Positions 1 to 36,590 of a stretch of 64,000 nucleotides of DNA are shown here, piece after piece; position 1 is the first letter of the stretch, and the number at the start of each line of letters is the position of its first letter. Made by a program: the position numbers and the translations under genes. Under the pieces are notes generated by a model. The model was given only the letters and a program-made list of their open reading frames with translations, did no database searches and was not told the DNA's origin. The stretch comes from Linnemannia elongata (lineage: Eukaryota > Mortierellomycota > Mortierellomycetes > Mortierellales > Mortierellaceae): positions 1,116,001-1,180,000 of the forward strand of contig JAXBDG010000015.1 of the NCBI GenBank assembly GCA_036320915.1. Reading direction: 5' to 3'.

Positions 1-623
1 AGTTGGTGGCGTTGATTCAATTCTGTCTTGCTGACACTTAGCGAGCGTAGGGTAGGTAGTTTGTGAAGTTCAAAAAGGGACCTACACTTTATGGTTCTTG
101 TAGTACATGTGGAAGAGCAAGCAAGGGTCAATATGCTTCGTCTTCTAATTATTAAATTCACAACCTGGTCAGGGAGAGAGGGACAGAGAGATAGAGAGGG
201 ATGACCCTTGAGGAAAGTTCCAGATTGGCATTTACTGCGTACTTATAAATTTTGCCACCAAACCTTTGTCCCAGTGTCAACAGTGCCATAAGTTAAACGT
301 CTAAACGCGCTAACAACTCATTCCTCCTCCTCCAAACCTTGTTCGTTGAACCAGAAGAGAACTTATTAGTTATGGTGCCCGTCCTTTATCCCCATCTACT
401 CACCTCTCATGCCACCAATGCTCGACGTCTGCCTGATGGCGGAGGTCGCCATTTTCCTGGCATACTCAATTTGCTTTCGTGCTTTTTTTTGATATAAAAG
501 GCAAAGACTACGACACATTGTTATCTTTCCTTTTTTTTCTTCCTTTTCTCTCCCTCAACCATCCTCTTCACCCCCCCCCCACACACACACACATCCATCA
601 TAACCCAGCACACTTCAACCACT
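1..623. other. Upstream region of secreted-family gene A
   Basis: No coding potential seen. The stretch 213-335 is similar to 7246-7372, upstream of the Ser/Thr-rich gene. The stretch about 320-500 is similar to about 10500-10661, upstream of paralogue D. It ends in a TATA box and a pyrimidine-rich leader with a short CA repeat. Confidence 0.6.
491..500 (+). promoter_or_regulatory. TATA box of gene A
   Basis: The sequence gatataaaag lies about 130 bp before the ATG at 624. The same ATATAAAAG-like core occurs at a similar distance before all five paralogues, which supports it as a core promoter element. Confidence 0.65.
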
Positions 624-1188
624 ATGAAGACTTCTTTTGCCCTCGTCGCCATCCTTGGGTAACCTTACATTATTGTATGACAAACCTTGATTTTTCCTCC
701 TTTATTCAACATGTCCTCCCCTTCACATTCTAAGCAGACCATCACACATTCATCTTCACTCCACGTACCTTTTTCCTTGTAGAGGCGCTCTCTTGGCCGC
801 TATCCCCACCATCACCGCCCTTCCTGTCGCGCGAGTCCCAATGAAAACTCTCGAGCAGCCAATCTTCCGTGACATCCCCTTGGGTCAGAACCAAGGATTT
901 CCGGGAGGATTGGAACGTATCGCTCGCATTTCCCTCCTGCAGGCCTACCGTGTTCCCACAACAAACGGCCCTGCCACCGACGCTGAGTCTTTGACGTTGA
1001 ATCCTTCCTCCGACGCCCTTATGGAAGCGATCAAGAAATTCGCCAAGGCCTATGAAGACCTTGTCAAGGAAGCCGGATCCCGTGAAACTCTCTCCGAGGA
1101 GGCAATGATCGAGCCCTTCGAGACAGTTAAAGCGCTTGCGAATGGTGTGTGCGTTGACGTTGGTCCTTTCGTCAGAGTTTGTGTTTGA
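624..1188 (+). CDS. Secreted family protein A, internally deleted short form
   Basis: Function unknown. Exon 1 is 624-658 (35 nt) and the intron 659-782 is GT-AG, phase 2. Exon 2 is 783-1188, giving 146 aa. The start encodes MKTSFALVAILG and the signal peptide continues across the intron (GALLAAIP). It is the shortest of five paralogues. Relative to D (643 aa) it keeps the N-terminal region up to about the NQGFPGGLERIA segment. It then jumps in frame to the C-terminal linker helix (SSDALMEAIKKFAKAYEDL) and a type-2 tail ending NGVCVDVGPFVRVCV, which matches D's NGVCVNIGLVTICT. The middle of about 480 residues, including the Cys-rich CxxCWFK motif, is absent. A poly(A)-like AATAAA lies at 1265-1270. 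The frame is intact, so a small secreted protein may be made; a decaying copy is the alternative. Confidence 0.7.
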
Positions 1189-1580
1189 ATTAGCGCCTTT
1201 TTTTTTTTTTGTTCCTGTTCTCCTTTCTTTTGTTCAGCCTTTTTTTCTAAAGCTGAAGTGACTGAATAAAAGTCAAAATATATGCACTTCAACTCATTCA
1301 TGATGATGTCTACACCTTGTTATCCTGAGGTATTGAACTACCTGGGGTTTTTGTTTATAGCAGCGAATGGCGCTGTGGCGAAACAGGAGTGTACTGAGAA
1401 AGATGAGAGTCGTCGTTTTCTATCTCTCTCACTAATTTTTTTTCATGTTCGGTTAATTTTTTTGGTGGCGCTTTGATCATGTTGCTAACCACCAGGCGGT
1501 GGCCATGCTCGAACTGTCAAAAGGAGGTACGGTAATTGAACGGGGGATTTGTGTACACACTCAATCACTCACTCACTCAC

Positions 1581-1940
1581 TCATCCATTCGCCTAATCAC
1601 TTACTAAGTGCACTCAAAGCTGCAAATAAAAGAGACAGCGTAGCAGCCAGACAAACAAAGGATGCTAGATGTAAGGCTTGGATTTTTAGTGAGAATGGAG
1701 GCTGGTAGCCATGGAAAAAGGTCAAAGCACGCGTTGTTGTAAGGCATATTCTTTTGTTGGTCTTTTTGCAAGCCTTTGTTTTTCTCACTCTAGACGTAGC
1801 TGCTCGGGTACTCAAGTGACCAATTCACCTTCTATCGTCATCAATTCACTCCATGCCTCCTCTACCTCAACTTTGTGGTGGTCAGACGATATTTTTTCGC
1901 ATCGCCGATATTTCTTTCTCACTTTGTTTTCGTATAAAAG
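1581..1940 (+). repeat. Duplicated promoter segment, copy 1 (before B)
   Basis: Nearly identical to 13354-13697 over the first roughly 235 bp, from tcatccattcgcctaatcac onward, and clearly similar as far as the TATA box. It shows that B and E were duplicated together with their upstream DNA. Both copies are preceded by a CACT microsatellite, shorter here. Confidence 0.85.
1931..1940 (+). promoter_or_regulatory. TATA box of gene B
   Basis: The sequence cgtataaaag lies about 130 bp before the ATG at 2065, aligned with the TATA box of paralogue E. Confidence 0.65.
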
Positions 1941-2064
1941 GGTTTACTTTTATTTTTTTTGTTTTCAGTTCTTCTTTCTGCTTTCCCTCAAAGTTTCTTC
2001 ATCTTGTCACTCTCCCGCCCACACTCTCTCTTCACTTTGCAAACGCATACACACGCCTCATCCC

Positions 2065-3866
2065 ATGCGCACTGTATTCGCCTTCACGGCGATCCTCGGG
2101 TAAGATTGCTCCTTGTGTGACAAGCCTTGACATCCTTCATTCGACCTGTCTTCCTTTCGCGTTCTCAAACTGACCGTCTCACCGTTTGTTCACCGCGCAC
2201 CCTTTCTTTTCTTAGGAGCGTATTAATAGTCGTCATTCCAACCGCGACTTCGCTTCCACATCCTCAAGTTCCACTGAGCGCTCCTGAACTGCCAGTTCAG
2301 CCCCCATTAACTACAGGGATCGTTCGTGGCAACAGCATCCTATCCGTCCTCCACCAGATCGCCTCGGGCCTGAACCAAGATTACCCAGGGGACTTGGGGA
2401 GAATGATGAAAAATCTGACCACCAATGGACCTTCAAGTATCCAGACGATTGCGCCGTCTGATCTCAAGGCGGTCATACAAACTTGGGAACTCGACATCGC
2501 CTTGATTGACAAAGCTTACCACGATATTCAGGATTTGATTCGATCGGCACTTGAAGAAGGCATCTACATTGCCCAAGGACTTTCGTACAGCTGGTCGCAC
2601 TGTCAGGGTCATACGTATCATCACACCTGCCTGTCGACTCTGATGGTCGTTGTGAGGGTGCCGTATGTGGTCAGTGGCTCCATCTGGAGGGCCGAAGTGG
2701 GACACGTTTACGTAACTTCAGGCGCCAAGACACACATCTGCCACCAACGCCGCTGTGGCTTCCTTGGGTTATGCAAGCCTCGCTGTCACGACTACTCCAA
2801 AGACCCACAAAAACTCCTGCATATTACTGCTGTCATGTTCGCCTCCCAGGCCGACTGGGCCTTGAACCATCTCCTTAAGCCTCCAGCAGACGTGTCCTTC
2901 GCCAGAACGGACGTTTCTCATCCCCCATCTTTGGCCGCTTCTTCACCTCTTCTTTGGCGTGGTCGATTCGACCCCCTGTTGAGACTCTTTCGCGGCAAAG
3001 CGGCGGAAAATCGCGACGTGCATCAGACGTACCGAGGAGGCTTGCTCGCAGCGATCCTGGACCCTAATGTGCTCATAGAGTTTTTGCGCGCTGCATCCGC
3101 GTCGTCCTACTTTAATATCCCTGTCCATGACAAGGTCCCAGTCGATAACCAGCTCCCCAGCCCTTTTCAACAGTATCAAGTCGTTGATGGTTCTGAAACG
3201 TCCGCAGCTGCATTGGCGATGAGCCCCTCCTTTGATGCTTTGAAGGAGTCGATCTACAAGTATGCCGAGTCTTGGGGAAAAGTCGTCGGAGAGATCGGAT
3301 CCAGAGTCAACTCAGACGTCCAGCGACGGGTCTGTCTCGGCTTTGATGCACTCGATTACCAAGCCACCTCTAATGTGCTGCAGGGGGTGCCGACTAGGAA
3401 CATGCCGCGCCTTGTGGAGTATGTTGTTGACAGGGAGGGCCTTCCCAGGCAAGAAGACGTCAAACGCCTCATGTCCGGTGTCAAGTACTCAACCAACTTT
3501 ACTTGGACAGCAGAGTCGATGACATTCACTAACCCGGCCGGCGAGCAGTCGTACTTCTTTTTCGCAAAATATGGTGGCGAAGAGGCCTCGGAGAGGTCAG
3601 ATGTGGTGTACTCGTCGGTCAAGAGTCAGTTTGTCCTTGCGCGCGATATGCTGGTTCTCCATCCCCAATCGAGTTCGCTCTGGGGGCTCTTCAGCAGCGA
3701 GGAGACATATATCGAGTATGTACCACATACGATGACGTTGAAGGACACGTTGGTGTTGGAGATGTACTGGGAAATGATTGCGTTCCGTCAGATTATGATT
3801 AGTCTGGGAGTTGAGCCGCCGAAGGCCCCGGATCTGAGCGGACTTTGCAATCGGTCCATGCCTTAG
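2065..3866 (+). CDS. Secreted family protein B, lacking the middle module
   Basis: Function unknown. Exon 1 is 2065-2099, the phase-2 intron 2100-2215 and exon 2 2216-3866, giving 561 aa. The signal peptide starts MRTVFAFTAILG. It aligns with E through the N-terminal region (SALEEGIYIAQGLSYSW) and a Cys-rich patch that differs from its paralogues (CHQRRCGFLGLCKPRC instead of CxxCWFKxCC). At about 3055-3070 it jumps in frame from the segment LLAAI to LIEFLRAASASSYF. This skips about 180 residues present in C, D and E. The C-terminus is type 1: RRVCLGFDALDY, TNFTWTAESMTFTNPAGEQ, SYFFFAKYG, ending LCNRSMP. A poly(A)-like AATAAA lies at 3983-3988. Expected to be exported from the cell. Confidence 0.8.
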
Positions 3867-4547
3867 AAGAAAGTTGGGAGCTATCATCCTTTTTCCTTCT
3901 GATTTTTTTCTTGTGTTCGCTTTCGCTATTTCCCCTCTATCACTCTTACTTTTTCGAATTGGCTGGAGCGGCATTGAATTGCAATAAACAAAAAAAAAAT
4001 CTCAACATAACTCTGTGACTCAGGGTATTAGGAACAGGCAATCAAGCAACAAGCAGACAAGCCAGCAAATATGCAAACCACATGTAAATATGCAAACAAG
4101 CAAGAAAGCAAGTGTGCAAGGTAATTTTTTGTGACGCCAATGGTTCACCCATGAAAAAATTCCACTATTTGCATGAATGGGACAACAAAAATCCACGCGT
4201 ACTTCTTCGCCACCCACGGTATTTTTCTGTGAAGACGAAGCGCCATTTTTTTGTTTGCTATTGATGCTGCTGTGCCATTTCTGTGAGTACAAGGTCCAAA
4301 CACCCCGAGCCCGTTCAGCCATCTAACACCTCCCGTTCGCACCACGTTTGACAGTCTCCAGTTTCCCATTGTCTGTCGACTTTACAATGGCGAAGATTTT
4401 ATTTTTTTCAGCACCTTTCCTTCTTATATAAAAGCATTCTATCTCACATACAATCACTCCCACTCACACAAAAACAAATCCTCTCCTCTCGCGCCAATAG
4501 AAATACATATAACTCTTACAGTACACTCTATCCCCCTTTCTCACTCC
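3867..4547. other. Intergenic region between B and C
   Basis: No gene seen. It holds the B 3' end (AATAAA at 3983), a stretch of irregular caag/caaa-rich repeats about 4030-4110, and the promoter of C with its TATA box. Confidence 0.55.
4425..4434 (+). promoter_or_regulatory. TATA box of gene C
   Basis: The sequence tatataaaag lies about 120 bp before the ATG at 4548. Confidence 0.6.
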
Positions 4548-6972
4548 ATGCGGTCTTTTCTTGCCCTCACGGCGATCCTTGGGTAATAGACTCAATCGCG
4601 CCACTAGGCTCTTTTTTTTAACATTCGAGCTGTCCCCCTCAAACTAACATTCATATCCTGTCACACATACCTTTATTTTTTTTTGTAGAGGCGCTCTCAT
4701 GTGTGCATCCACCAATGTGTTCGCCATACAGTCTCCTCCACAAATTCCTATGAGAGCCCCCGACGACAACGTCGTCGTCCCAGTCAAATATCCATCATTC
4801 TCCGCTAGTGCCGTGGAACAAGGCAACGACGTCCAAGATGTGCTGTCTCAGATCGCATCCCGTCTCAACCAAGGTCTCCCCGACCGCTGGGAACGTCTCA
4901 TGCATGCACCCAGCACCCAAGGGTCTTCGAGCATTGACATGGTAGCCCCCTCTGACCTCGAGTCGATCATCCGGTCCTGGGGACTCGACAGCGACTTATT
5001 CGACCAGGCCTACCGCGACATCAATACGCTGATTCGACTCGCTGTCGGAGAGGGTGTCTATATCGCACAAGGGTTCTCGTACAATTGGTCACGTTGTCAA
5101 GGAGGTGGTGAACATCCTGCATGTCTCTCTACTCTTATTGTTGTCGTGAGAGTGCCGTACGTGCCGGGTGAGGGGGGCGATGGTACTACTTCGAGAGCGG
5201 AGCTGGGACACATTTATGTAACTACGACGGCAGAAACGGTGCAACAGTACGTCTATTCTCATCCGTGCCACAGATGCTGGTTCAAGACATGCTGCCATGA
5301 CGTCTACACCCCAAGAAATCTTGACACGCAGGAACTCCAGGATGTCCAGGCAGTCATGTCGACCTTCCAGTCCGACTGGGCCTTGAGCCTTCTCTCACAG
5401 CAGTTGCGTCAAACTCAACCAGCCCTGTATAATACCAAGCCTGCCCCATTTCTGTCTTCTGCTTCAAACGCTGCTCCTGTGTGGCCCAGCCTTTTTGATC
5501 GTCTGCTGCGTCTGTTTATTGGTAACTCTGCTGAGAACCGTGACGTTCACAAGGTCTACAGAGGAGGGTTGCTCGAAGCCATCCAAAACGCTACCCTCTC
5601 CCGTCGGCGAGCCTTTCACAACATGCAATTGACAGTCTCTGAGCGAGGGATTGTTCCGCTGTTGGAGGATATGTTGTCAAGTTGCTTTGACCGAGCAGGC
5701 ATCGAGGAATCAGTCGAGGAGTGGTGGAGGCGTGTCTACAACGGGGACCAAGACGATCCTATATCTCTTGAGTGCGAGTTCGCGAGTCAGAGGAGGGTTT
5801 CAGTTGTACCTCCAAGATACAGGTGCGTCACCAACACGAATGTCACGATCGACAGCTCGTATTCTTGGATCCTGGTTGCGCCGCACGACAATGGTCTGTT
5901 TGATATCTTGTTTATGGAAGGCGATCTTGGAGTGGCTTTTGAGGAATGCGAGCCCGAGGACGAGGATGACGATGACGACGATCTGGGTTCACGGACGACT
6001 TCTGTACGCGTTCCTACGGATATCCAAGAATCCGGCTCGATGATACGCTGGGGTTATGTCGACTCCAATGATGGCTCTTTCGGTTCCGTGCAGTATCTGG
6101 CAGAGTGGGAATCTTATCCGAGCCATGTTAGCAAAGTACTACTCGATTTCTTGCGCTTTGCATCCGCCTCATCCTACCTCAAGATCCCAATCTACAAGAG
6201 GCCCTTGTCGTCTCCATCTCTATCACCGTCACCTTGTCCTCATCGACATTCTATTCTCCACCACTACCAACGGCAACAGCTCCAACTACAAGACGCCAAT
6301 ACTGGTGCCGTCGCGCCTTTGGCCATGGACCCGTCATTTGTCGCCCTAATGGAGTCCATCAAGTTGTTTGCCGAGACGTGGGAGAAGCTTGCCAAGGCGA
6401 TGGGATCCACAATCTCCACCACCATCAAGCGCCGCGTCTGTCTCGGTTTTGATGCCCTCGACTACAGAGCAACCTCAAGCGTTATGCAAGGGGTCGCTCA
6501 CAAGAACCTCGTTGAACTTGTCGAAGAAGTCGTCGACTTGGAGGAGCTCCCTCGCCGAGAGGACATCAAACGCCTCATGACTGGCGTCAAATACTCGACC
6601 AATTTCACCTGGCTCGCCGAATCGATGACGTTCACCAACCCCGCCGGAGAGTCGTCGTACTTCTTCTTTGCAAAGTACGGAGGCGATGGGAGCTCTGATA
6701 TGGCGAATGTGGTATACAGCGCTATCAAGAGCAAGTTTGTCCTGGCGCCTGATATGTTGATCGTCCGACGCCAAAAGAGTTCCTGGTTTGGGTTCCGTAA
6801 GAGCGATGAAACATCGATTGAGAATGTGCCACACACGTTGACTCTGAATGATACGTTGGTGCTGGAGATGTTCTGGGAGATGGTTGCGTTCCACCAGTTG
6901 GCGATTAGTCTTGGAGGCGACCCGCCCATGTATCCGGATCTGAGCGGGTATTGCGACCGGTCTATTCCTTAG
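4548..6972 (+). CDS. Secreted family protein C, full-length form
   Basis: Function unknown; the longest paralogue at 772 aa. Exon 1 is 4548-4582, the phase-2 intron 4583-4688 and exon 2 4689-6972. The signal peptide starts MRSFLALTAILGGALM. Modules in order are: an N-terminal region (GVYIAQGFSYNWSRCQ); a Cys-rich patch CHRCWFKTCCHD; and a middle module beginning NATLSRRRAFHNM. The middle module contains EWWRRVY, ECEFASQRR and an acidic run (EDEDDDDDD), and ends in FLRFASASSYLKIP. A variable Ser/Pro/His linker follows, then the helix SFVALMESIKLFAETWEKLAK. Last is the type-1 C-terminal module (RRVCLGFDALDYRAT, SYFFFAKYG, FHQLAISLGG, DRSIP). It lies between the two duplicated pairs and its upstream DNA is not obviously part of the duplication. 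AATAAA lies at 7049. Confidence 0.85.
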
Positions 6973-7578
6973 AAACGAGTTGAGGACATCTCTCCCCTCT
7001 CCTTCTCTTCCGTCCCCACTTCATTGCGTTGTTTTTTTTTGTGCCTTGAATAAAACACTTTTGTCGTTGTTATTTATCATTCTTGTGTTTATTTTGTCAT
7101 CTTTTATGGTGGAAAATGCACTCCGCAGAAGAGTTCTCTCGATGGAGGAAAAATGCAAAGAGACAGAGAGGAGATCTGCGTCCGTGGTGCTTGTTTCCCT
7201 TGACCAGCGCCTTGTCCATAATGCTACCACCATGTAATTTCTTCCCGGGAAGATTCCAATGTAGCATTTACTGTGTACTTATAAATTTTGCCACCAAACT
7301 TGAGTACCTGTGTCGGTGCTACGCCCAAGCTTCTGAGCGCGTTTCAACAGACAACAACTCATTCCTCCTCTTCCCTTCCCATCACCACCAGCTCATCGCA
7401 ACATAGCTACCAGCTCATAGCAGCCAGCAACACTCTTTACCTGACATCAGTTCTCTCTGTTTCTGCCATTTGCCTTTTTGGTTTCTGGCATTCGCAATCA
7501 ACGCAATTCGCATTCAATACACCAGAGCAACCGAGTTTTCTACATTGCAATCAGCACCATCGTCGTCTGAAGTACCTG
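6973..7578. other. Upstream region of the Ser/Thr-rich gene
   Basis: It contains the 3' end of C and, at 7246-7372, a stretch similar to 213-335 before gene A (shared core cttataaattttgccaccaa). This suggests a relic or co-opted A-type promoter. No separate gene seen. Confidence 0.55.
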
Positions 7579-9453
7579 ATGACCATGACATACTCCAAGA
7601 ACTCCGCCATCGAAGCTGTGGACATGTTCATGGATATCGACCCTGAATGTAAGCTTGTTTGTTTGTTTTTATGTTAACTGGCTGCCCTGTAAGCATTCTG
7701 TGTTTGATATGCTGTGCTACAACTTAACTATGTATGTTACACAAATATTTGGAAACTATTAGCCCGCAAGAGGAAGCGGATGGCGCAGGATGACAAAAAC
7801 GAGTACAAGGAACAGGAGACTCTCTACAAGAAGAGCAGGGTCACCACCGTTCTTTCGACCACTACATCCACCACTGCACCCTTTGCTTCTGCCGCCGCTA
7901 CCAGAGAGACATCCATCGTCGCCGCCACTGCCGTCAAGGCCATTACCACCACACCCACACCAACCATGACCACCTCCTCCTTTACTGTCGTCGCAGCCAA
8001 CAGAACCCCTACCGCGTCAACAACCATTAGCGAGGGTTCTACTTCCGCTGCCCCAAAGGCCTTTACTACCGTCACCGAGGCTGTTACTGCCGCCTCCTCA
8101 AGCACAAGCTCACTCGTCGCTGCCATCAAGGCCGTAGCTACGACACTTCCAAGTCAGAACATGGGCCAGCACCACACTGTGGCTACTTCCCCTACCAACT
8201 CTGCCACCACAGCCAATAGCTCGACTTCCACGACGGATAGGTCCCAGGGCACTTTCGTGGCAGTCAACAAGGTCCCTAATTCCACCGCACCCGACGCAAG
8301 CATGGCCTCCTCTTCCTCTACCGTTGTCACGGCCAACAGGGCATCTACCGCCTCAAAAACCATTAACGAGGGTCCTAGTGCCACTGCCCCAAAGGCCTCT
8401 ACTACCGCCACCGGCGCCATTACCGCTGCCTGTTCAACCACAAGCTCACTGATCGTTCCCATCAAGGCCGTAGCTACGACACTCCCAAGTCAAAACATGA
8501 GCCTGCACCACACTACAACTACTTCCTCTAGCGCAATCCTCAAGCGTCCGTACGAGGAGGAGACGGGATCACAGGAGCTTTATCGGGAGCATGCGAAGCG
8601 CCGCAAGGCACACACGCAGTTGGACATGCCACCTTCGGCTTCAACGTCGTCGTCATCGTCGTTATCGTCTATTTCCTCTGCCACCCCTTCGCTTACTGCA
8701 CCTCCGCGAACCGACCCGTCCTCCTCCACAACGTCGCAGTCGCACTCCTCACGCTCCACTCCCTCCGAGTCTGTGTGGATCAGGTTCAAGTTGAGCTCTA
8801 CTTTAAAGAGCAACTCGGACATAACATCATCCTCTTCTTCGTCCACCATCTCGTCTACATCTCCTACTTCGTCTACATCTCCTACCTCTTCCATTTCGCG
8901 TAAATTGTCCATTTATCCCGCCTCGCACTCAAAGCAACCCGAGAAGTCCAAGGAAGAACGTTGTGATTGGGACATTCGCGTCATCGAGAGAAATGAAAAA
9001 TTCATTATCTGCATTAAGCCCAAGAGCACAGGGGACCACGCACCCAAGAGACAGCAGAAGCGAGATAAGCAGGGCAAGAGGACCGCCGAGGCCAGCAGCG
9101 CCATCAACAATTACGGTAGACACCGCAAAACGGATATAACTGTCCACTCTTCTGCCAGCAGCAGCGTCTCCACCAGCAGTAATATGAATGGTGATGACAT
9201 GGACCATATCAACACCACCGCCGCTGCCTCCATCCCTACCAGCCTTGCCCACGCCCCAAACACATCGGTTCAGCACATTGTCCAGAGTCGACGTGATTTC
9301 ACAGACGCACAACAGGAACTGCGAATTCTAGCACAAGAATACTTTAGGCGTCCGCGAAAGAGACTCTCCTCCTTCGACGGCTCTGTCAAACAATTTTTCC
9401 GACTTCGAGCAGGGCAGCTGTATACCTCTCGCCTCCATCAGCATCGATATTAG
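7579..9453 (+). CDS. Ser/Thr/Ala-rich low-complexity protein of unknown function
   Basis: Not recognised. Exon 1 is 7579-7648 (MTMTYSKNSAIEAVDMF). The phase-1 intron is 7649-7762 and exon 2 is 7763-9453, giving 586 aa. The intron joins DPE to SRKRKR, a basic nuclear-localisation-like patch. The body is almost wholly Ser/Thr/Ala/Pro with two tandem copies of a roughly 70-aa unit (IKAVATTLPSQNM in both). Poly-Ser runs and a short charged segment (WDIRVIERNEKFIICIKPK) follow. No signal peptide or membrane span is seen, so a nuclear or cytosolic disordered protein is likely. The 3' end is uncertain. Splicing 9420-9468 and 9570-9632 would bypass the TAG at 9451 and extend the frame to 9829. It interrupts the secreted-family cluster and does not resemble that family. 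Confidence 0.6.
7971..8178 (+). repeat. Coding repeat unit, copy 1
   Basis: About 208 bp, repeated in frame at 8305-8512 with a 334-bp period. It encodes a segment ending IKAVATTLPSQNM followed by a His-His-Thr. Confidence 0.75.
8305..8512 (+). repeat. Coding repeat unit, copy 2
   Basis: Second copy of the 7971-8178 unit. It is the same length with scattered substitutions that keep the frame. Confidence 0.75.
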
Positions 9454-10789
9454 CATAATTAGTTACAGCAACCACAACGGCGACAGATACTTCAGCAGCA
9501 TGGATACCTTCAGAGCAACACCCAATATTACTCCGCCAACCACGGCCAAGGCAACCGTCATCATCTTTTGTGAGTGAGAGCTCTACGGTTCAAGCGCTCA
9601 TTAACAACACGGCGTATGATTTTCCTCGCCAGTCCATGCACACTTTTCCGGCGAAGGCACAGCCACAAACACTACCAACCAACCATCACCGATCTTCCTT
9701 TCTTCACTTTTATCTACTCCATCGACCAATGTCGCCACCAATCCTGCTTCTAAATCATCGCATTTGGAGATCGGATTGTACATTATTTTCTTGAATATTT
9801 CATCTTTTGAATCTATCATTTTTTCATGACCTTCATAGCCTTTCCCATTGCACTCATAACTTTCATTGTTGCTCAATCATAATTGCTTTATCGTCATTAC
9901 CCTCTGTACACAAACGCAAAAAAACAACAAACTTTCACAAAAAAAATCAAATAACCCTCCCAAAACCCACAAAATACATTTTACTATTAGTTTGCACAAT
10001 TCATCGTAAATAAACAACCATTCCATTTCCCATTCGAAAGGGCTCTTGGAATAATTAATCGCATGGAAAAGGAAGTGCTGCTTTATGCTCTGCAGAAAGA
10101 AAAAGTGCGGGGAACATGAATCAAAGCAGCAAGATTTTGGCGGCGTTGCGATTTGAACTTTCGCGACGCGCGATACGAAACATGAATCTAGTGGTGAACG
10201 ACTTGCAGGAAGCCTTGCACAGGCACTTGGAGTAAACACATGAGAAAACTCAAACAGTACTCAAAGCAGATCAAATCAAGAAGGAAGCAAAAAAGTAAGA
10301 AAGCGAGCAAGCGAAGAAGGTAGGATCTCAAGGCTTTGATTTTCGTAAACGAAAGTTGTCTATTTTGCCGGAAAGCAAGAACGAAGCACCAGTATGGGTC
10401 AATGCACGCGTGAGTGCTGAGCATATGTTGAATTTTTCATGCAACTAAATGGTGTTTTGGTTTGTGCTGAGCAAGGCTTGACTTTCAGTTGGCTGTGTAC
10501 GCTGTTCAACGAACCATAAGAGAACTTATCGTTCAGGTAGCCCTTCCACTATTCCCATCCACTTACCTCTCATGCCCCAATGCTTGACGTTTGTTTGATC
10601 GCGCGGAACGCCTTTTTCCTAGCATGTTCGATAACCTTTCGTGTTATTTTTGATATAAAAGATAAAGACCAACGACCCATTCTCTCTTTCTTTTATTCTT
10701 TCTTTCTCCACCCTCTATTATCCTCCATCTCTCCCATTCTCCCATTCTCCCACATACATCCACCAAACACCAACCACTCTTCACCCAAT
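9454..10789. other. Possible extra 3' exons, then upstream region of gene D
   Basis: 9469-9569 and 9633-9829 may be further exons of the Ser/Thr-rich gene (see findings). From about 9830 no coding signal is seen. About 10500-10661 is similar to the upstream DNA of gene A. Confidence 0.45.
10652..10661 (+). promoter_or_regulatory. TATA box of gene D
   Basis: The sequence gatataaaag is the same string as in A and lies about 137 bp before the ATG at 10790. The surrounding DNA is similar to that around the TATA box of A. Confidence 0.65.
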
Positions 10790-12844
10790 ATGAAGACCTC
10801 TTTTGCCATCGCGGCGATCCTCGGGTAGGCGAATGTTTTTGTATGGCAAGCTTCGATGATGTTTATTTCGAACTATACTCCCCCTCACATTTTAAAGCTA
10901 ATCACCTCACTGCCATCATCACCGTATCTATTTTTTCTTCCTTGCAGAGGCACCTTTCTAGCCGCTATTCCTACTGTTGCCCCCCTTCCGCCTCCTCAAG
11001 TCCCGATGAGGGCTCCTGAGCAACTGGAGCAGCAACTCTCCGCTTCCAAGTCCTTCCAGGGTGATGATGTCCAACAGGTCCTCCGCAACATTGCCTCAGG
11101 TCTCAACCAAGGATATCCAGATGGATGGGAGCGTTTCACTCGCGCTCCTGTCAGCGGCGGCTCGTCAAACATCCAGATGGTCACGGCGGATGATCTCAAG
11201 GTAGTCATGCAAACCTGGGGTCTTGACGGAGGTGTTCTTGACCAGGCCTACGACCGCGTCCATACGGCCATCGAGCTTGCTGTCAGTGAGGCCGTCTATT
11301 TCGCCCAGGGGTTCTCGTACAACTGGCATCAATGTCAAAATGGCGGTGATCACCCCGCGTGTCTGGCGACACTCATGGTTGTCGTGAAGGTGCCCGATGC
11401 GGTCGGCGACGACGGAGCTTGGCAGGCCGAGGTCGGTCACATTTACATCTCCACAGTTGCCGAAACGCTGCAGCAGTGGGTTCCCTGGCACCGATGCCAC
11501 CATTGCTGGTTCAAGATGTGTTGCCATGACGGTGCGGATCCGAGAAACCTGAACAACGGAGAACTTGACGTGGTCAAGGCCGTCATGTCCACTTTCCAGG
11601 CCGACTGGGCTTTGAACCATCTCCCAAACCCCCCAGCAGAGATGTCTTTCGCAAGAACCGACGTTTCTCTTTCCTCAGTCCTGGACGCTCCTTCGTCTCC
11701 TCTTTGGCCTGGTCTATTCGACAACCTGTTGCGACTCGTTCTCCGTAACCCGGTCGAGAACAGCGATGTAAGCAAGACCTATCAAGGAGGTTTGCTCGCC
11801 GCCATCCAGAACGCGACCCTGTCCCACCGCCAAGGCTTTCACAATCTGGAGTTGGCTGTTCGCGAGCAAGGTGTTGTTCCGATGTTGGATGACATGCTGT
11901 CAACTTGCTTCAGTGAGGCAGGCATCAAGGAATCGATCGAGGATTGGTGGAGACGCGCCTACGTCAAGGGACAGACCGATCCTATCTCTCTCGAATGCGA
12001 GTTTGCCAGTCAGAGAAAGGTGTCCGTCGTGCCTGCAAGAACCGGATGCGCTACCAGCACTGATGTCGCTGTCGATACCTCTTACGCCTGGGTAGTGATC
12101 GCACCACGTGATGGCGTGTTCGAAATCCTTTTCATGGAGGGCGATGTCAGCGTTACATTTGACGAATGTGTGCCCATCAAGGGAGACGATCAAGATGGCG
12201 ACGGCGAAGTTCACACGTCCTCCGTTCTTCTTGACGACCTAGAGTCCTCCGGTTCCATGGTCCGCTCGGCCGTTCTCAACTCCAGCGACGGTTCTTTCCG
12301 CTCTGTTCAGTACTTGGCGGAGTGGTCTGAGTATCCCAGCTATGTCACCAAGGTGGTACTCGACTTTTTGCGCCGTGCGTCCGCGTCGTCGTACCTGAAG
12401 GTACCCATCTACGACATGCCTCCTGCCTCCTCGCAGCATAGCCAGGCTCCTGTCAAAACCGTTGCTGTCAAGGCACCATCAGAGTGGTGCTTCATCCTTG
12501 AAACTCTGAAGAAGACCCTCAAGGTCTCTGATGAGGACTGGAAATTTGCCGCCAAGTTGTACGGATGCGGTGTCGCATCTACCATCCACCCTTCCTTTCC
12601 GCAGCAGCAACAAGGTCCCAAAGGCCCTACTGCCGCCACAGAGGCTTTATCGATGATCCCCTCCTTTGATGCCGTTCTGAAAGCTATCGAGAAGTATGCC
12701 AAGTACTTGGAGAGGATTGTCTATGGGGGTAGATCCAGTGTGAGCCCCTCCGAGGAAACCATACTGGTCGAGTCCATGGAGCCCACTCAAGCTTTTTCGA
12801 ACGGGGTGTGCGTTAACATCGGCCTTGTTACAATCTGTACTTGA
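10790..12844 (+). CDS. Secreted family protein D, type-2 C-terminus
   Basis: Function unknown. Exon 1 is 10790-10824, the phase-2 intron 10825-10947 and exon 2 10948-12844, giving 643 aa. The signal peptide starts MKTSFAIAAILGGTFLAAIP. The N-terminal region has AVYFAQGFSYNWHQC; the Cys-rich patch is CHHCWFKMCCHD. The middle module runs from NATLSHRQGFHNL through DWWRRAY, ECEFASQRK and an acidic run (DDQDGDGE) to FLRRASASSYLKVP. A unique insert (PSEWCFILETLKKTLKVSDE) follows. The linker helix is SFDAVLKAIEKYAKYLERI. The protein then ends in a short type-2 tail (NGVCVNIGLVTICT) instead of the roughly 200-aa type-1 module. It is the counterpart of A by tail and flanks. AATAAA lies at 12930. Confidence 0.85.
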
Positions 12845-13322
12845 AGTAAACCTACCTTTTTTGTGTTCTTTTCATCCTCTTCTCTGCTATGTCGTCTTTA
12901 TTTCGAAAGTAGCGGCTGATACATCACACAATAAATCTGCTCCAACTCAACTCAACTCAATACCTTGTCTGCACAACTTGAAATGGGAAATAATGCATGT
13001 TGTCGGTGGATTCATCACGTCTCGAAACATTCGACGGTACGATTATGCCTACACTTTTTTCTCCTCGAGGAATTGGACTGCAGGGAGGTTTTTGTTTAAG
13101 AGAATGGTGTTGTGGCGAAATAGAAACTTGTGGTAAGGGGGATGAGAGGCATCGTTTTTCCATTTCTCTCTCCTCATTTTTCTTGTTCGGTTCTAGAAGA
13201 TAAAGAGGGCATCGATACAAAATTTTGGTGGCGCTTTGATCATTTTTGTCAAACACAGTACGGTGACCCATGCTCGAACTACCAAAAGGAGGGACAGCAT
13301 TTGAACAGGGGACTTGTGTACA

Positions 13323-13354
13323 CACTCACTCACTCACTCACTCACTCACTCACT
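13323..13354. repeat. CACT microsatellite
   Basis: About eight CACT units directly before the duplicated promoter segment. The matching tract before B (about 1565-1583) is shorter, so the repeat changed length after the duplication. Confidence 0.8.
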
Positions 13355-13697
13355 CATCCATTCGCCTAATCACTTACTAAGTGCACTCAAAGCTGCAAAT
13401 AAAAGAGACAGCGTAGCAGCCAGACAAACAAAGAATGCTAGATGTAAGGCTTGGATTTTTAGTGAGAATGGAGACTAGTAGCCATGGAAAAGGGTCAACG
13501 CACGCGTTGTTGTAAGGCATATTCTTTTGTTGGTCTTGTTGCAAGCCTTTATTTTTCTCACTCTAGACGTAACTGCTCGGTGGCTCAAGTGACCAATGCA
13601 CCTTCTATCGTCATCCATTCACTCCATGCCCACTCTACTCCAACTTTTGTGGGGGGGAGCAGACGATTTTTTTTTTTGCTTTGTGTTCATATAAAAG
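13354..13697 (+). repeat. Duplicated promoter segment, copy 2 (before E)
   Basis: Partner of 1581-1940. The first part is nearly identical, and divergence grows toward the TATA box. Confidence 0.85.
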
Positions 13698-13698
13698 G
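13689..13698 (+). promoter_or_regulatory. TATA box of gene E
   Basis: The sequence catataaaag lies about 110 bp before the ATG at 13802. Confidence 0.6.
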
Positions 13699-13801
13699 CG
13701 ATAGGTCTGGTCTTCTTCTTGCCTTCAAACTTTCCTCATCCCATCTCTCTCCCACATCCTCTCCCTCTTCATTTTGCAAACATATACAAACTCCTCGTCC
13801 C

Positions 13802-16083
13802 ATGCGCACTTTATTCGCCTTTACGGCGATCCTCGGGTAAGATTGTTTCTTTTGTGACAAGTCTTGAATTCCTTCATTCTTCCCCTTGCATCCCAAACTG
13901 ACCATCTCACAGCATCTACTCACCGCGCACTTTTTTCACTTCTTAGGGGTGCATTGCTAGCCGCCGTCCCAAAAGTTACCTCGCTTCCGCCTCCTCAAGT
14001 TCCAATGAGAGCTCCTGAGCTGCCAGTCCAGCAGCACTTCTTGCCGTCAAATTTTTTTCAAGGCGACGATGTACAAGCGGTCCTCCACCAGATTGCCTCC
14101 AATTTGAATCAAGGCGTCCCAGACGACCTGGAGAGCCTGATGCAAGGCCTTTCGACTACCGGGTCGTCACGAATCGAGATGGTGACAGTGAATGATCTCC
14201 TACCGGTCATGCTGAGCTGGGGCCTTGAACACGAAGCTCTTGATCAGGCGTACGACCTTGTCCACACAAGTATCGAGCGTGCTGTTAGCGAGGCTGTCTA
14301 TTCCGCCCAAGGGTTCTCACTCAAATGGATCGCCACTAAAGTCAACGATGCTGAAACCATACGCCTGTCGAATCTGTTGGTGGTCGTGAAGGTGTCCAAT
14401 GAGCGTGGCGGCGACGGTGCTTGGAGTGCTGAAATTGGACACATTCACGTATCTTCAGGTGCCAACACCATTGTCTGCTATCAGTGCTGGTTCAAGTCTT
14501 GCTGCCGCAACACGACCGAGGGCCTCCGAAACCTGGAGAATATTTTCGCTGCCATATCCACCTTCCAAGCCGATTGGGCTTTGAACCACCTCCCAGAACC
14601 TCCAGCAGACTTCTCCTCTACTAGAACCGATGTTTCTCTGTCGTTGCCTTCTGAAACTCCAATTTGGCCTGGTCGATCCGAAAGTCTGTTGCGTCTCTTC
14701 CTTGGCAACTCGGCTGAGAACCGCGACGCACACAAGACCTATCGAGCAGATTTACTAGCCGCAGTCCAGAACGCGACCCTGTCTAACCGCCAAGGCTTTC
14801 ACAACATGGAGGTAGCCGTTCGCAAGCAAGGTGTCGTTCCGATTCTTCAAGATATGATGTCAACCTGCTTCAGCAAGGCTGGCATTGAAGAGTCGATCGA
14901 GGATTGGTGGAGACGAGTCTATGTCGACGGCCAAATTGATGCTGTCTCCGTCGAATGCGAGTTTGCCAGTCAGAAATGGGCGCCTACTGTGCCGCTCAGA
15001 CCAAGTTGTAACACCAGTGCCAGTGTCACCACCTATACCGAGCACACCTGGGCTCTGATCGCGCCTCGTGACGATATATTTGATATCCTTTTCATGGAGG
15101 GCGAGGTCAGCGCTGCTTTCGAGGATTGCGAGCCCTTGGAGGATGGCGACCAAGACGATGACGAGGAGTCAGTCCATGAGCGATTTGTTTCTTCCAAAGA
15201 TGACCTAGATTTCTCTGGTTACATGGCACGCTGGGCTTATGTCAATCCTGCTGATGGCACATTCCGATCTATGCAGTTCATGGCAGAGTGGCGGGATTAC
15301 CCCAGTTATGTCAGCAAGGTGCTCATGGATTTTTTGCGCTTGGCCTCCGCATCGTCCTACCTTAAGGTCCCAGTCTACGACAGGCGTCCTTCTTTCATGC
15401 AGCAGTACCAAGTCCCCCATGGTACTTTTTCTCCGACGTCAAGCCTGTCCTTTGGTGCCTTGATGGATTCGATCGGCAAGTTTGCCGACACCTGGGGGAA
15501 GCTTGCCAAGGCGATCGGATCCAGCTCCGTCACGACTATCCAACGCCGAGTTTGTCTCGGTTTTGATGCCCTCGATTACAAAGCGTCGACGGGTGTGATG
15601 CAAGGTGTCGCGTCCAAGAACATGGGTCTTCTTGTCGAAGACGTTGTCGATTTTGAAGACCTCCCCCGCCGAGAAGACATCCGGCGACTCATGTCCGGCG
15701 TCAAGTACTCGACCAATTTCACCTGGATGGCCGAGTCGATGACATACACCAACCCCGATGGCGAGCAGTCTTATTTCTTCTTTGCAAAGTACGGAGATGC
15801 GTTGACGGACATGGCAGATGTAGTGTACAGTTCGATCAAGAGCAAATTTGTCGTCGCCAAAGATATGTTGATTGTCCATCGCCAGGAGTCTTCGCTCTTT
15901 GGTTTGGACAAATCTGATGAGATGTCGATTGAGTATGTGCCGCATACGTTAACGTTAAACGATACGTTGATTCTGGAGATGTTCTGGGAGATGATTGCGT
16001 TCCACCAATTGGCTATTAGTCTTGGAGGCGAGCCGCCCAAGTACCCGGATTTGAGCGGTCTTTGCGACCGGTCCATTCCTTGA
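13802..16083 (+). CDS. Secreted family protein E, full-length form
   Basis: Function unknown. Exon 1 is 13802-13836, the phase-2 intron 13837-13946 and exon 2 13947-16083, giving 723 aa. The signal peptide starts MRTLFAFTAILG and continues GALLAAVP. It has all modules: an N-terminal region (AVYSAQGFSLKW); a Cys-rich patch CYQCWFKSCC; and a middle module (NATLSNRQGFHNM, DWWRRVY, ECEFASQK, acidic DGDQDDDEE, FLRLASASSYLKVP). The linker helix and the type-1 C-terminus (RRVCLGFDALDYKAS, TNFTWMAESMTYTNPDGEQ, SYFFFAKYG, DRSIP) follow. It is the best intact reference for B, with which it shares exon 1 sequence and upstream DNA. AATAAA lies at 16189-16194. Confidence 0.85.
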
Positions 16084-27232: not shown

Positions 27233-28930
27233 TTAATCACGACCACGATCTCTGTAGCTGCTATCGCGATCCCGTTCCCGGTCCCTGTGATCCCTATCAG
27301 AACGAGAGTCTCGACTTGATGATCCATACTCGCGACCACGATCACGATCATCTCTGCTGTCACGACTAGATCTGTAACTCTCTCTATCACGGTCGTCTCG
27401 ACTGGATCTGTAGTCCCGGTCCCGGTCGTCTCTGCTATCTCGACTTGACCGGTAGTCCCGATCCCTGTCATCACGGTCATCTCGACTTGAGCGATAATCC
27501 CGATCACGCTCCCGATCATGCTCTCGTTCCCGATCTCGAGTATCTCTGATGTCTCGACTGTCACGGCTTGACCTGTGGTCTCGGTCACGGTCATCTCGGC
27601 TCGAATCTCTAGATCGCTCCTTCTCCGGCTCTGGTTGTTGCGTAGCTGAGCGCCCACTACTGCTGTTGTTCAATTCTTCCAGTCGCTTCTTCTTGGCCAT
27701 TTCCCGCTCCATGATCTCTTCGACTGGCGACCGCTTCTTGGTGGGTGCTGATGATGTGACTGCACTCGCCGCAGCTCCATTTCCAGAAACGGTGGTGGCA
27801 CTAGGTGTAGAAGCGCTCTTGGACGAAAAGGGGTTCGTCTTCTTGGCTGCAAGCGCGTTCAAACTTTTGGGTTTCAGCAACCCACCGCCGCCCAACTTGA
27901 TACCTCCACCACCGAGACCACCTGTCAGACCAACCGGCTTAATGGAGATATCCAGCTTAATCTTCTCCTCTTCATTCTCCCTGACCAACTCTGTCGTGAC
28001 ACCATCAGCCTCGTCCTGTTGCTGCTTGAGTGCCAAAGCCTTATCGATCTGCTGCTGAATCAATCTTTGCTCCCGCTGCTCGTCATCGAGCTCCATGCGT
28101 TCCTTCTTTGCAATAGCTTCCTGTCTCGCCAGAGTCTTGGGGGAGTTGTCGATCCACTGCATGAACCAGCCCTTAGGGGTCTCATCTACAATCGCCAGTC
28201 CTTCTTTTCCAAGGTGCATTGTGAACTCGGAGAGAGTCGCCCATTTGGTGGCGTTCATGTGGAGATGTGTCCTGTCTGCAATGAATTCTTGGTATACGAG
28301 GTTTGCATTGACTCGACGAGTTCCATATCTATGAGTGGCAAGGTTTTTTAGTTAGAGACGATGTTTTTGATTTGTCATCCAAGTAGTTGTTTTGCGAGAC
28401 AAGGTAATAAGAGGGTTTGGCGAACAAGGATTTGCAAAGGTACCTGGTTGAGAGCAGCTTCATGAAATCCTTCAGAAACTCTGCAGAGTAGTCATTGACG
28501 TATTTCTCGGGGGACTCGGCCACCAACAGGATCTTGCGCTGATGCGACTCTGAAGCACAGTGACACTAATTTTCAAGATAACAATAACAGAAAAGGCAGG
28601 ATGTGAGCACGAAGGAAAACCTACAACAGAAGTTACTAGGCATGGTATTTTACGGTGTGCAGCCGTTGTTCTTCTGTGGGCGTTAAACATACCTTGAATC
28701 CGTTCTCGTCTCGGCACTGCTTCTCGCAGATCTGGCAGTACCATCTCAGTTTCTGAAGTCCCTTTGCTTTAATGCGGTTGCCAATCTATTTATGTTTGAA
28801 TGAAACGTTGAAAAGAGAATGTGAGTTTTTATATTTTGTGCTTATGGCATTGTGTGACATGCAAGGAGGTGGGAGTCAATGAAAGCAGTGAGCTTACAGC
28901 TTTGGCGGTCAAGAAGCCATCTTTTGCCAT
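27233..28930 (-). CDS. KIN17: KIN17 DNA/RNA-binding zinc-finger protein
   Basis: Exons on the minus strand: 28930-28898, 28785-28693, 28565-28444 and 28328-27233, giving 447 aa. Exon 1 reads MAKDGFLTAKA. The zinc finger (WYCQICEKQCRDENGFK, then CHCASESHQRK) is split by the second intron. The conserved winged-helix region follows (YVNDYSAEFLKDFMKLL, RYGTRRVNANLVYQEF, HLHMNATKWATLSEF, ETPKGWFMQWIDN). KIN17 proteins act in DNA damage response and associate with the spliceosome. The usual C-terminal KOW/SH3-like region of animal KIN17 is not seen. In its place the last 120 or so residues are Arg/Asp/Ser repeats (RDYRSSRDDRD). The start lies about 200 bp downstream of the CWC15 stop, on the same strand. 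Confidence 0.9.
27236..27610 (-). repeat. Arg/Asp/Ser coding repeats of KIN17
   Basis: Degenerate repeats of about 14 codons (core RDYRSSRD, RDDRD) form the C-terminal tail, similar in character to RD/RS domains of splicing factors. Confidence 0.75.
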
Positions 28931-30242: not shown

Positions 30243-31786
30243 TGTGCGATGGTCGGTTGTGTGGAGAGGTTGTTGAGACGTCTAGAAACATGCAAACTGT
30301 CCATGTCTTTAGGCTCAGAGACTTGAGCGAGACACTTCCGTCTTGGTATTCTGATAAATCGCAAGCGATGCACAGTTCAGGTACAACTTAGAGTTTTTTT
30401 TGTCGCCACCAACCTAGGAACCTGGGTCCTCAAGGACTGATAGTCTCACTTCGCGACAGACCGTTGGGAATGGGGATCAAACGACCAGGTTCTTATGCTG
30501 ATAGTGGCGAGGAAAAGAAAACCGCGCTGTCCCAGATGATATTAAAAGCTCCTTGCTTCTCTTTTGTCCTGGTTGTTGCATGGCCTTTCTCTTCTGGTCT
30601 GGACCTTCTTTCTATTTCTACTATCTGGGCTGGCTGACTCTGAATCGAACCATCCATTGAATGACCAAGAAAAAAGAATAAATGGAAAAGAGCGAAAAGG
30701 ACAATGACAAAGAATATACGCAGAGAGAAAGATGGAAGACGATGGAAGTGAACCAAGTGATCTATTTGGGTGTGTCTGTCGTGTTTTAGTGTAGGCTGAC
30801 TACCTTTCCGCGGAGGCGTCTGAAGGTGAGTGTTCAAGAAAGTGTAAATTACACAACCATCCAAGAAAAGGAGAGAAAAAGGGGCAGAGGAAAATAGAAC
30901 GGACGTTTGCGATGGATGCTTGGGTATGAAAAATTCAGAGGTCTACAAACCACTGACCATTGACTGAAAGTGACAGCAGCTTGCTTTTTTTGTGATTGTG
31001 TCTGCTTTGTGCTTTGTCCTCAAAGCGCAACAAAGTCAGCAACAAGAACAGACAACGTGAGAGCCACCGTCCCACAGTCGAAAAACGAACAAACAATTGA
31101 AAGGGAGAGAGGGAAGGGAGAGAGAGGGCCGAGCCTTATTCTTGTATTTCCACAGCTTTGGCTGACTTTACTAAATCGACCATTGGCCAGCATACTATCT
31201 TTGCTCTTATCCTCTTTCCCCTTTGTTTTACCTTCTTTCTTCTTTCCTTGCCGTCCTCTCTGGCCCTCTGCCCTTCCACCTTGCTCTTCCTTCCTTGACG
31301 TTCCTTTCTTCCCCTGTTTTGTCATATTCGCCCCTTGGCCCTCTCCCACTAGATCATCATCTCTTTTCTCTCTCTTCTCTCTCTCATTCCAGGCTGTACC
31401 CCTCATCGCCTCACTCACTTTCCGCTATATATACTTTACCTACTACCCCGCCCACACTTACCCAAACTCCTCTTTTCCTCGACGTCTCTCTCCACTGTCA
31501 CCCACTTCGCCTCATCACACCCTCCAAAACAACTACAATTCAAGTACACGCTTCGTCTTATTCTTTTCTTTCTCTCTCCCCCTTCTGTCTCTTCGCTCAT
31601 CGCACTCTCTCCCATCTCACCACAGTTTCCTTTTTCCATAACCATTCAAATTCGACTTAGTCCCTTTTAACTTGTCACACTCCACACACACTTTCTTTCT
31701 GCTCCAACGACAAAGCCAAAAAGAAAGGAAAAAGAAACCTCCGCTCAAACAAACATTAAACAAGAGGGAGAAAGAGAAAGAGGGAA
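30243..31786. other. Divergent promoter region between CWC15 and kelch gene 1
   Basis: No gene seen. 31150-31700 is strongly pyrimidine-rich, giving open but low-complexity frames, and likely serves as promoter and leader of the kelch gene. Confidence 0.55.
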
Positions 31787-34457
31787 ATGATACCATCGCT
31801 CTGCAGCCACTGTAACGGCTGCCGGTTATGGACAATACATAGGACCATAGGCCCGCAGCGGAGCAAAAGGAAACAACAATATCAGCAACGACAACCACGG
31901 CTAGTCCCACGCCAACGTCTCCCTCTCGTCGCCGCTAGTCTAATCTTATCCCTCTCCCTCACCCCCCGCCCGATCCATGCCCAACAGCAACCACCGCCAC
32001 CAGAGCCTTACCTTTACAAACCACGCTTCTCTTCCGGCTCGGCCGTCGCCAACAATCGACTCTACATCGTCTCTGGCTACACTTCTGAGAATTTCCCCAC
32101 GGACGCCGTAGGCGACACCTTCTTTGTGCCCCTCGACCGCCCCTTCTCCAATGACTCTGTCCCCTGGACGGCCGTTAAACCCGCTTGGATCACAGCTAAA
32201 CCTTTTTCTATGAACGGAACCGATGCCACCGTCGTACGAACACTAGATCAATCTCACCTCCTCCTCCTGGGCGCAAGCGGTCAAGGCGACCCCCTCCTCA
32301 TGTCCTACGACATCGGTGCCGACTCGTGGGTTCCCTTCCGTTCAGGTGACGAACCACCACGCTCTGCCGTCGGCGCGGCTCTCGATCTACAGACAGGCGC
32401 CATTGTCGTCCAGGGAGGCTTTATCAGGAACGTCAGTGCCTCTCTTTCGTCAGAAATCGACACTCTCATCTCAAATGGAGGGCTGGACCGGTGGGAATGG
32501 AACAAGGGTGCGCCAACGACGGCATTGAGACCCATCTTTCAGCCCATCGTCGCCTATCTACCGACACTAAAGGCTACCCTCATCATGGGTGGCACTAGGT
32601 TTGAAAACTTCAGCATCCCAGGTCTCCAACAATTCGACACTGGATACCTCGTCACCACTTCCACCGTCAACGGCAAACCGATAGTGAGCAACGCCGTCGT
32701 CAATCTCACAGCATCCGACATGGCGGTACCCATAGGTCGATTGTCCCCCTGCTATACTGTTCTGGAAAACGGCAACCTGTTTATGTACGGAGGAGCGACG
32801 TTCTCAGACAGTTTGAACGAGGCCTGGATTCTCAATGCTGGCGACCTGACATGGAAGATGGTTTCAATCGGCCAAAACCCTACAGCAGGGCGAGCAGGAG
32901 CTACCTGTCAACGGATATCACCAGACCAAATCATGGTCGTTGGAGGCAAGTTCACTTATCCTTACAGTGTAAAACTCTTGTTGAGAGGCCCATGCTTTAG
33001 TAGAAAACTGAGATAACAAAAACATAGGAGAGGAGCGAAGACTGATAATCACGCTCTCCTTTCCTTGGATCTCATCTTTTTGTCTTGTTTGTTTACTTGC
33101 ACTGGTCCAAGCAACAGCTTTTTTAACCCGAATTTGTTTATCCCCCTCCTTCACCCTTGCGCCACACTGTTTGTATCTTTATATAGGGTACAGTGCGGCG
33201 ATTAACAATCCCTCTCGATCATTTACTCAGCCCCAAATTGGCATCATCGACACCAAACAGTGGGTCTGGACAGCAACATATACACCACCACGCCCAGGAC
33301 TACCTCTCGGCGCCATAATCGGGATCATTGTTGGCAGTTGTCTATTATTGGGCATCGCCTTGTTCTTTGCAGGGCGCACAGTATGGAAGAGACGCAAGTC
33401 CAACATCGACAGGAAAATCAACCGGGATTCAATCTCATCACACCCGCTCATGGGCAGTGACTCGGCCCTCACGAACGCCAGCAATGACCGTTTCAACAGC
33501 ACCCGCAATCTGATCTCGCCTTCACCTTCCTCAGGCCCCATCTCCGGCAAAATGGGATCTGAATTCCATTCGGTATCTCTGTCATCGAACAAGGGCGAGA
33601 GGTCACTTCCCTTGATCATCGACCCCTATCCGGCCACGACCTCCTATACCTCCTCGTCGCTTTCAGTCTCAGGAATGGATTCGTCCGAGCGAGGATCGAC
33701 CCCGACCTGGAACAGTTACAGGAGTAAAGGCGCCAAATCCGAAGTGTCCCTGCCCGAGAGCGAACGGTTGCCGAAGACAATGGCCGATATGCAGTATGGA
33801 TACTACGTCAAGACGACACAACACAACAAGCAGTACGAGAAGCGACGGAACGACCTCAACCGACAACATCCCAACAACGGACTCAACCGGAAGATCACGT
33901 CGAACCAGCATGCGATCCTCAAGGACGGGTACCACGATGACATCGAGCTGGCGACGGCGGTTTTGAAGTTGAAGGACGTGGAAATGGGTGAGGAGTCGAT
34001 CATGACTCCTCTGCAGTCGCTTGAGACGGGGACGATCTTGGTGTCGAGTCATCTGGACGATCAGGGTAGTTTTCTTGTATCACCGACTGGACCTACATCG
34101 CCGATTGGACCTACACCACCGATGCCGATGAGGGGGATTCCACGGAATTTTAGTAGTGTCCCCTCCAAGGCCGAGTTGAACGATGATGACGATGAAGAGC
34201 TCTATCAGCCGGGTGTTGGAGGGTCGATCACGAAGCTCAATGCCATTAAGGCTGCCAAAGCTAAGGCCAAAGCTGCTGCTGAAGTATCTGGAGCAGGGGC
34301 AGTACCAGGAGCAGTTCAAGGCAAAGGACAGCAGAACCAGAACCAATTGCAGCAGCAGCAGCAAGCGGGAAGGCGCGCAATGTCACCATTGTCGGAGGAA
34401 CTTATCTCAGAGGAGAGTGAAGTGCTTGTGGACAACCGCCGAGTCAGACGGCCGTAA
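31787..34457 (+). CDS. Kelch-repeat single-span membrane protein 1
   Basis: Exons 31787-32945 and 33187-34457, 809 aa. The intron 32946-33186 begins GC, not GT (GGAG|gcaagt). It sits at the same codon and phase 1 as the intron of the neighbouring paralogue, and splicing restores VVGGYSAAINN. An Arg/Gln-rich N-terminus precedes a hydrophobic signal ending near PIHA. Kelch blades are marked by double-Gly or similar motifs: RLYIVSGYT, IVVQGGF, LIMGGTRF, LFMYGGAT, IMVVGGY. One membrane span (about 427-448, GAIIGIIVGSCLLLGIALFF) is followed by WKRRK and a cytoplasmic tail of about 360 residues with Ser/Pro, Ala/Lys and Gln runs. The kelch propeller is expected outside the cell and may bind sugars or proteins. 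The ligand is unknown. Confidence 0.85.
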
Positions 34458-35890: not shown

Positions 35891-36590
35891 TTAGAGGATG
35901 AGAGCCAGTTGGTCAACCCTGGGTAATGAATTGAAGCTGAAAGAGGTAGAGAAGAGCGCTAAAACGACAGAGAAATGTCCATCCACACATCTCCCTGTCC
36001 AAAATGATACCTTTATGTTAAACAAGAGAGACAAATAAAGACGTTTACTACTTCATTCCTCTTTCTTCTGTCCATCATCCTCTCCTTTCTCTCTCCCCTT
36101 CATCCCATCCACTCCTCTACTCTTTCCCTTTTTTCATCATCAACTTCCTCGTCCCTTTTTGCGACCATTGCAGCACACAACAAACACCACCCCCTTGCTG
36201 TCCGTTGACATCATCTCTCCCTTCCTTCCTCCAGTTGGATCCGTCTTTTTCTGTTCATTACTGCACACTCTCTTCACACACACACACTCACTCATTCACT
36301 CACTCACTCTCCTCTCCTACCCTCCTTTTTCTTTCCTCGTCACAATCACCATTCTCTCCTCTCATTCCTCACACATCGAACAAAGATAAAGCCTCACAGA
36401 TAATAAGGGGCTTTATATTTTCGCCAAATATGTTCTGAGCATCTTGTCTTCCCTCGGTATTCTCCCCCTCCTATCAATCCTTCTCCCCAGCCGCCTTTTC
36501 CCCGGTTAAGCCCCTGGCGGCATATCACCCATCTTCACAGAAACCAAACCATCCCTTCACTCCAACGCCTTTTTCTATTTCAAAGTCGTC

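Follow-up and report, generated by a model that had tools for sequence, protein, structure and literature searches.

A tandem cluster of secreted-looking, cysteine-rich proteins in Linnemannia elongata with a weak likeness to cytolysins

What kind of protein is encoded by five related genes, A to E, that stand side by side in a 64,000-bp stretch of the Linnemannia elongata genome (C7:1116001-1180000, referred to here as the window; the genome comprises 51.1 Mb in 32 contigs)? To our knowledge, little is known of the proteins by which Mortierellaceae act on their neighbours. The family is among the most frequent in soil, according to the available text of PMC8283828. Our preferred answer, to which we give a probability of roughly 40%, is that the genes encode a secreted, cysteine-rich protein family of the Mortierellaceae, whose full form consists of three cytolysin-like modules resembling Cyt and volvatoxin A2 and acts outside the cell on membranes or lipids.

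Gene models, motifs and constraint

Genes A to E all lie on the plus strand, within positions 624-16083 of the window (window coordinates are used throughout). Each has a first exon of 35 nt (11 codons plus two bases, M[RK]xxxAxxAIL), a single GT-AG intron of 106-124 nt, an uninterrupted frame, and AATAAA or ATTAAA within 200 bp downstream. Gene A (624..1188; exons 624-658 and 783-1188) encodes 146 residues, a signal-like head and a C-terminal tail of the type found in D, with none of the modules described below. Gene B (2065..3866; exons 2065-2099 and 2216-3866) encodes 561 residues, or 560 with an alternative acceptor three bases downstream, and has an N-terminal (N) and a C-terminal (C) module without the middle (M) module, the junction lying at about position 3060. 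Gene C (4548..6972; exons 4548-4582 and 4689-6972; 772 residues) and gene E (13802..16083; exons 13802-13836 and 13947-16083; 723 residues) carry all three modules in the order N-M-C, and gene D (10790..12844; exons 10790-10824 and 10948-12844; 643 residues) combines the N and M modules with its own C-terminal segment. Protein identities are 38-59% pairwise over aligned codons and DNA matches reach E-values down to 0, far beyond chance, and the five same-strand paralogues described in the initial annotation are confirmed. A protein search of the same genome with E matched at least five stretches, all at this locus (E, C, D and two of B), with no match to gene A among the stretches listed. One public L. 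elongata gene model (P0029, BGZ90_008435) appears to join A and B in one protein, so annotations of the cluster may be wrong.

All five proteins begin with a hydrophobic segment, which agrees, by hydropathy only, with the signal peptide proposed earlier. Beyond the N-terminus only B shows a hydrophobic stretch, near residue 150, and this is marginal (1.62 against a threshold of 1.6). With such segments on adjacent related copies, the cluster is one of secreted-looking, tandemly expanded paralogues, as had been suggested. C, D and E carry an exact CxxCWFKxCC motif, as reported; the version in B is degenerate, and A lacks it. In E, the motif lies in the N module (14053..14586; residues 36-213 of protein P0001), which is followed by the M module (14674..15363; residues 243-472), with four invariant cysteines and an acidic run situated in a low-confidence loop, and by the C module (15445..16020; residues 500-691), the most conserved between paralogues. 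The M module with its acidic run had been ascribed to all five copies; it is present in three of them (C, D and E), but A and B lack it. The gap in B, about 180 residues that match the M module, keeps the frame and recurs in P0032, a relative from M. hygrophila, and in the partial P0037 from Mortierella sp. GBA39; P0024, P0028 and P0034, of the B clade, retain the module. In D, most of the C module is missing, its place taken by a tail (12662..12844) similar to the end of gene A, and P0033 and P0036 retain the C-terminal segment peculiar to D.

The open reading frames are under constraint. Ratios of nonsynonymous to synonymous substitution (Ka/Ks), calculated among the paralogues only by the Nei-Gojobori method with our own script and bootstrap bounds, were 0.19-0.49 at the gene level in all 10 pairs and 0.11-0.41 at the module level in 11 of 11 comparisons among B-E, with upper bounds up to 0.60. 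For A against D, the head gave 0.30 (0.14-0.57) and the tail 0.43 (0.15-0.93). The fast change that had been proposed is not borne out: the ratios and upper bounds stay below 1 in all 13 module, head and tail comparisons, and positive selection was unseen at the gene or module level among A-E, although Ks and Ka/Ks are rough with synonymous sites near saturation (proportion of synonymous differences, pS, 0.51-0.74). At the protein level, the N modules are 42-56% identical, the M modules 55-60% and the C modules 65-78%.

Relatives and predicted fold

Two sequence searches, one with E as query and one with a 24-row profile, scored only the roughly 8,000 candidates with the most words in common; they reach only sequences that share short words, and deeper relatives may exist. 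E matched at least 30 proteins at E-values up to 0.01, and the profile matched at least 32 at E-values up to 0.1, 30 of them identical to the first set, while an N-module profile added three proteins, of which the two named are both from Linnemannia hyalina. Among the matches listed, the closest named relative of E is 96% identical and comes from L. elongata. Ten rows are nameless; the organism-named relatives, from 14 species or strains, all belong to Linnemannia, Mortierella, Haplosporangium, Dissophora or Podila, each placed in the Mortierellaceae by taxonomy lookup, and the survey of homologues that the initial annotation had in view stays, for the named relatives, within the Mortierellomycota. 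In viral and prokaryote contigs, pattern searches produced 17, 11 and 8 matches, none confirmed as a relative.

No significant match to a known family was found in Pfam or NCBIfam, in line with the earlier statement that no known domain could be assigned. The five proteins gave chance-level Pfam rows only (DUF5499 at an E-value of 0.21, FliD_C at 0.1, I_LWEQ at 0.19), and 24 members gave five families at E-values up to 1, again at chance level (dCache_3 in 5 of 24, best 0.01, and four single-member rows at 0.18-0.23). NCBIfam returned a single chance row for four proteins (0.069), and PDB sequence searches returned no significant match. Rows for photosystem I subunit IV and MtPhBP were judged to be chance. 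Among the papers listed in a literature search none dealt with the A-E family, with most subscription papers outside its coverage.

The lead on function comes from structure. In a single structure prediction of E (exon 2 only), the order of helices and strands is repeated along the chain, and the C and E proteins are predicted to consist of three alpha/beta modules with the same topology, arranged in tandem, and B and D of two. As hhalign gave probabilities below 1% for all three pairs of N, M and C profiles, this reading comes from predicted structure and not from an internal sequence repeat. The N module, modelled with confidence and compared with Cyt1A and volvatoxin A2, returned Cyt structures as its top-ranked Foldseek rows, and its predicted fold bears a weak but topologically consistent resemblance to that of the Cyt/volvatoxin cytolysins, in which two layers of helices enclose a sheet, a lead absent from the initial annotation. 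Uncharacterised giant-virus proteins (Hyperionvirus, moumouvirus, Edafosvirus, Terrestrivirus) also have predicted folds that match the N module in BFVD with probabilities of 0.98-1.00, but at template-modelling (TM) scores of 0.33-0.43 and with no relative confirmed by sequence in viral contigs. The two best of these rows (3.6e-5 and 8.3e-5) have E-values below every PDB row, though the library is a different one.

Several points set the family apart from the known cytolysins. While each module is predicted to follow the helix and strand order of Cyt1A and Cyt2Ba (PF01338), TM scores are only 0.29-0.41. PF01338 matched 0 of 5 proteins at E-values up to 5, is absent among the five families found for the 24 members at E-values up to 1, and gave no match in the genome at E-values up to 10, where 14 control genomes also gave none and the search hence has no positive control. 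Because this profile test failed, we do not assign the family to Cyt/volvatoxin. The VIA rows linking the C module to volvatoxin A2 and Cyt2Ba stand on a low-confidence model, which slightly lowers our confidence. Volvatoxin A2/A1 of Volvariella volvacea is likewise fungal, and A2 appears in Foldseek or VIA rows for both the N and C modules, but the family has no sequence match to volvatoxin in PDB searches, has two or three predicted modules with cysteine motifs, and has a structural score far below that given between known members in the source text available. CytC is described, in the available part of PMC5390079, with one cytolysin domain per protein, against three predicted in C and E and two in B and D. 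A single domain is doubtful as a defining trait of the group, since volvatoxin A1, which regulates the pore former A2, is twice its size (PMC9230820, text available in part). A volvatoxin-A2 precursor gene is also reported from entomopathogenic Beauveria in the accessible text of PMC7794557, and such proteins are therefore already known in fungi. On the predicted models, the most economical account would be a secreted Mortierellaceae family whose modules either have the cytolysin arrangement in common or reached it by convergence.

Alternative readings and proposed action

The best-surviving alternative, which we consider possible but rather unlikely, is that the proteins serve Mortierellaceae in the cell wall, on the spore surface or in adhesion and have a separate fold, whose likeness to Cyt would reflect only a common alpha/beta arrangement. 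Set against it are the Cyt structures at the top of the Foldseek ranking for the confident N-module model, and the proteins lack a second strong hydrophobic segment and any at the C-terminus.

A more doubtful alternative is that the proteins carry lipids or other hydrophobic ligands outside the cell, the modules forming cups of the helix-grip type (Bet v 1, START, PYL) and no pores. The helix-grip fold runs strand, helix, helix, sheet, long helix. The family is predicted to share this order of elements, and many lower-ranked structural rows are of this type, but its modules have extra N-terminal helices, Foldseek probability and Z are lower than for Cyt/volvatoxin, and the root-mean-square deviation is mostly larger. 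No Bet v 1/START profile was among the Pfam matches, and the PDB sequence match is weak (E-value 0.098); it pairs a helix and strands of the model with an all-strand part of the helix-grip fold, and is probably chance.

That the cluster is decaying, with little present function and A and B as remnants, is very improbable: A retains head and tail only, with a tail Ka/Ks bound that reaches 0.93, and the gene models of several relatives are short or gapped, but all five frames are intact, Ka/Ks is low in the 11 module comparisons among B-E, and the B-type loss of M and the D-type tail recur in relatives. The uneven decay seen by the initial annotation is not borne out in that form, though A looks like a possible relic, and the short or gapped models of the relatives P0021, P0022, P0026, P0027, P0034, P0035 (an M. 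hygrophila relative of D), P0038 and P0039 may reflect either faulty annotation or genuine loss.

For the preferred cytolysin-like reading, the available part of PMC5390079 describes a mode of action for Cyt and volvatoxin in which the helix layers move aside, the sheet attaches to the membrane and the proteins oligomerise. By analogy, we infer that the family acts on membranes or lipids outside the cell, and probably against other soil organisms. After export by the secretory route, the helices of at least one module would open outside the cell, and long beta-strands would then attach to or insert into a target membrane, or hold a lipid, so that soil competitors or grazers might be harmed or repelled. 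The shortened paralogues, B without M and D without C, may partner the full forms in an alternative or regulatory capacity, much as volvatoxin A1 regulates A2.

The novelty lies in the family itself, its cysteine motifs and the predicted three-module design. A family of secreted-looking, constrained proteins of 560-770 residues with a possible membrane-acting fold, confined to Mortierellaceae among named rows, is a concrete candidate for a tool against other organisms. If the fold is true, the family would form a further group, of unusual three-in-one design, beside the volvatoxin, Evf and bacterial Cyt clades named in the part of PMC5390079 available. The boldest version, which we regard as improbable, is a new secreted pore-forming or membrane-remodelling protein in which three fused cytolysin-like modules make a partly pre-built ring and module-lacking paralogues act as partners or brakes. 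It would be an ancient weapon or lipid tool that only the Mortierellaceae possess, with proteins of similar structure in giant viruses.

Origin of the copies and neighbouring features

A tree of 36 proteins joins D and E (12 rows, support 100/99), with the B group (seven rows, 100/99) outside them and the C group (12 rows, 100/100) apart; nine of the 12 rows in the C group are named relatives, the most of any class. Among the copies compared, E is nearest to D in the N and M modules (56 and 60%), but its C module comes closest to that of gene C (78%; B reaches 68%). Upstream DNA tells a different story. In a BLASTN self-comparison of the first 17 kb, the promoter and start of A (340..857) are similar to those of D (10503-11022) at 71%, and the A-B spacer with the 5' part of B (1302..3052) is similar to the D-E spacer with the 5' part of E (13041-14762) at 70% overall. 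A-B and D-E have upstream and spacer regions that are copies of one another, and gene C and a Ser/Thr-rich frame lie between the two pairs. A simple block duplication of A-B into D-E, or the reverse, was suggested by this DNA but would place B and E as sisters, and is contradicted by the tree and the C module. With tree and per-module identities in conflict with it, the copies are mosaics, probably through exchange among them.

Within these copies, 300 bp upstream of B and E (1555-1854 and 13328-13627), found in only two genomic copies, are 95% identical; four 60-column blocks reach 92-98%, against 45-88% in other blocks, coding included, and one block that is all gap. Either gene conversion or the conservation of a control element may explain the stretch. 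The element TATAAAAG occurs six times in the window, both strands counted, against 1.34 expected, and five of the six, on the plus strand, precede the ATGs of A (493..500, by 131 bp), B (1933..1940, 132 bp), C (4427..4434, 121 bp), D (10654..10661, 136 bp) and E (13690..13697, 112 bp). The TATA box of the initial annotation is present upstream of all five genes, but at distances of 112-136 bp that are similar and not fixed.

The Ser/Thr-rich frame inside the cluster (557 residues, 7780-9453) is unrelated to A-E, has no Pfam match, and contains a 249-bp direct repeat (7946-8194 and 8282-8530, 80%). A 67-nt element, 82% identical, lies upstream of this frame (7248-7314) and of A (212-278), the only two copies found in the genome, and may mark a lost cluster unit. 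Elsewhere in the window, two frames with Kelch-repeat matches (31760-33013 and 36510-37694, E-values down to 2.9e-20) may be a second pair of paralogues, and the minus strand at 27236-28351 encodes a KIN17 winged-helix domain protein (5.7e-37).
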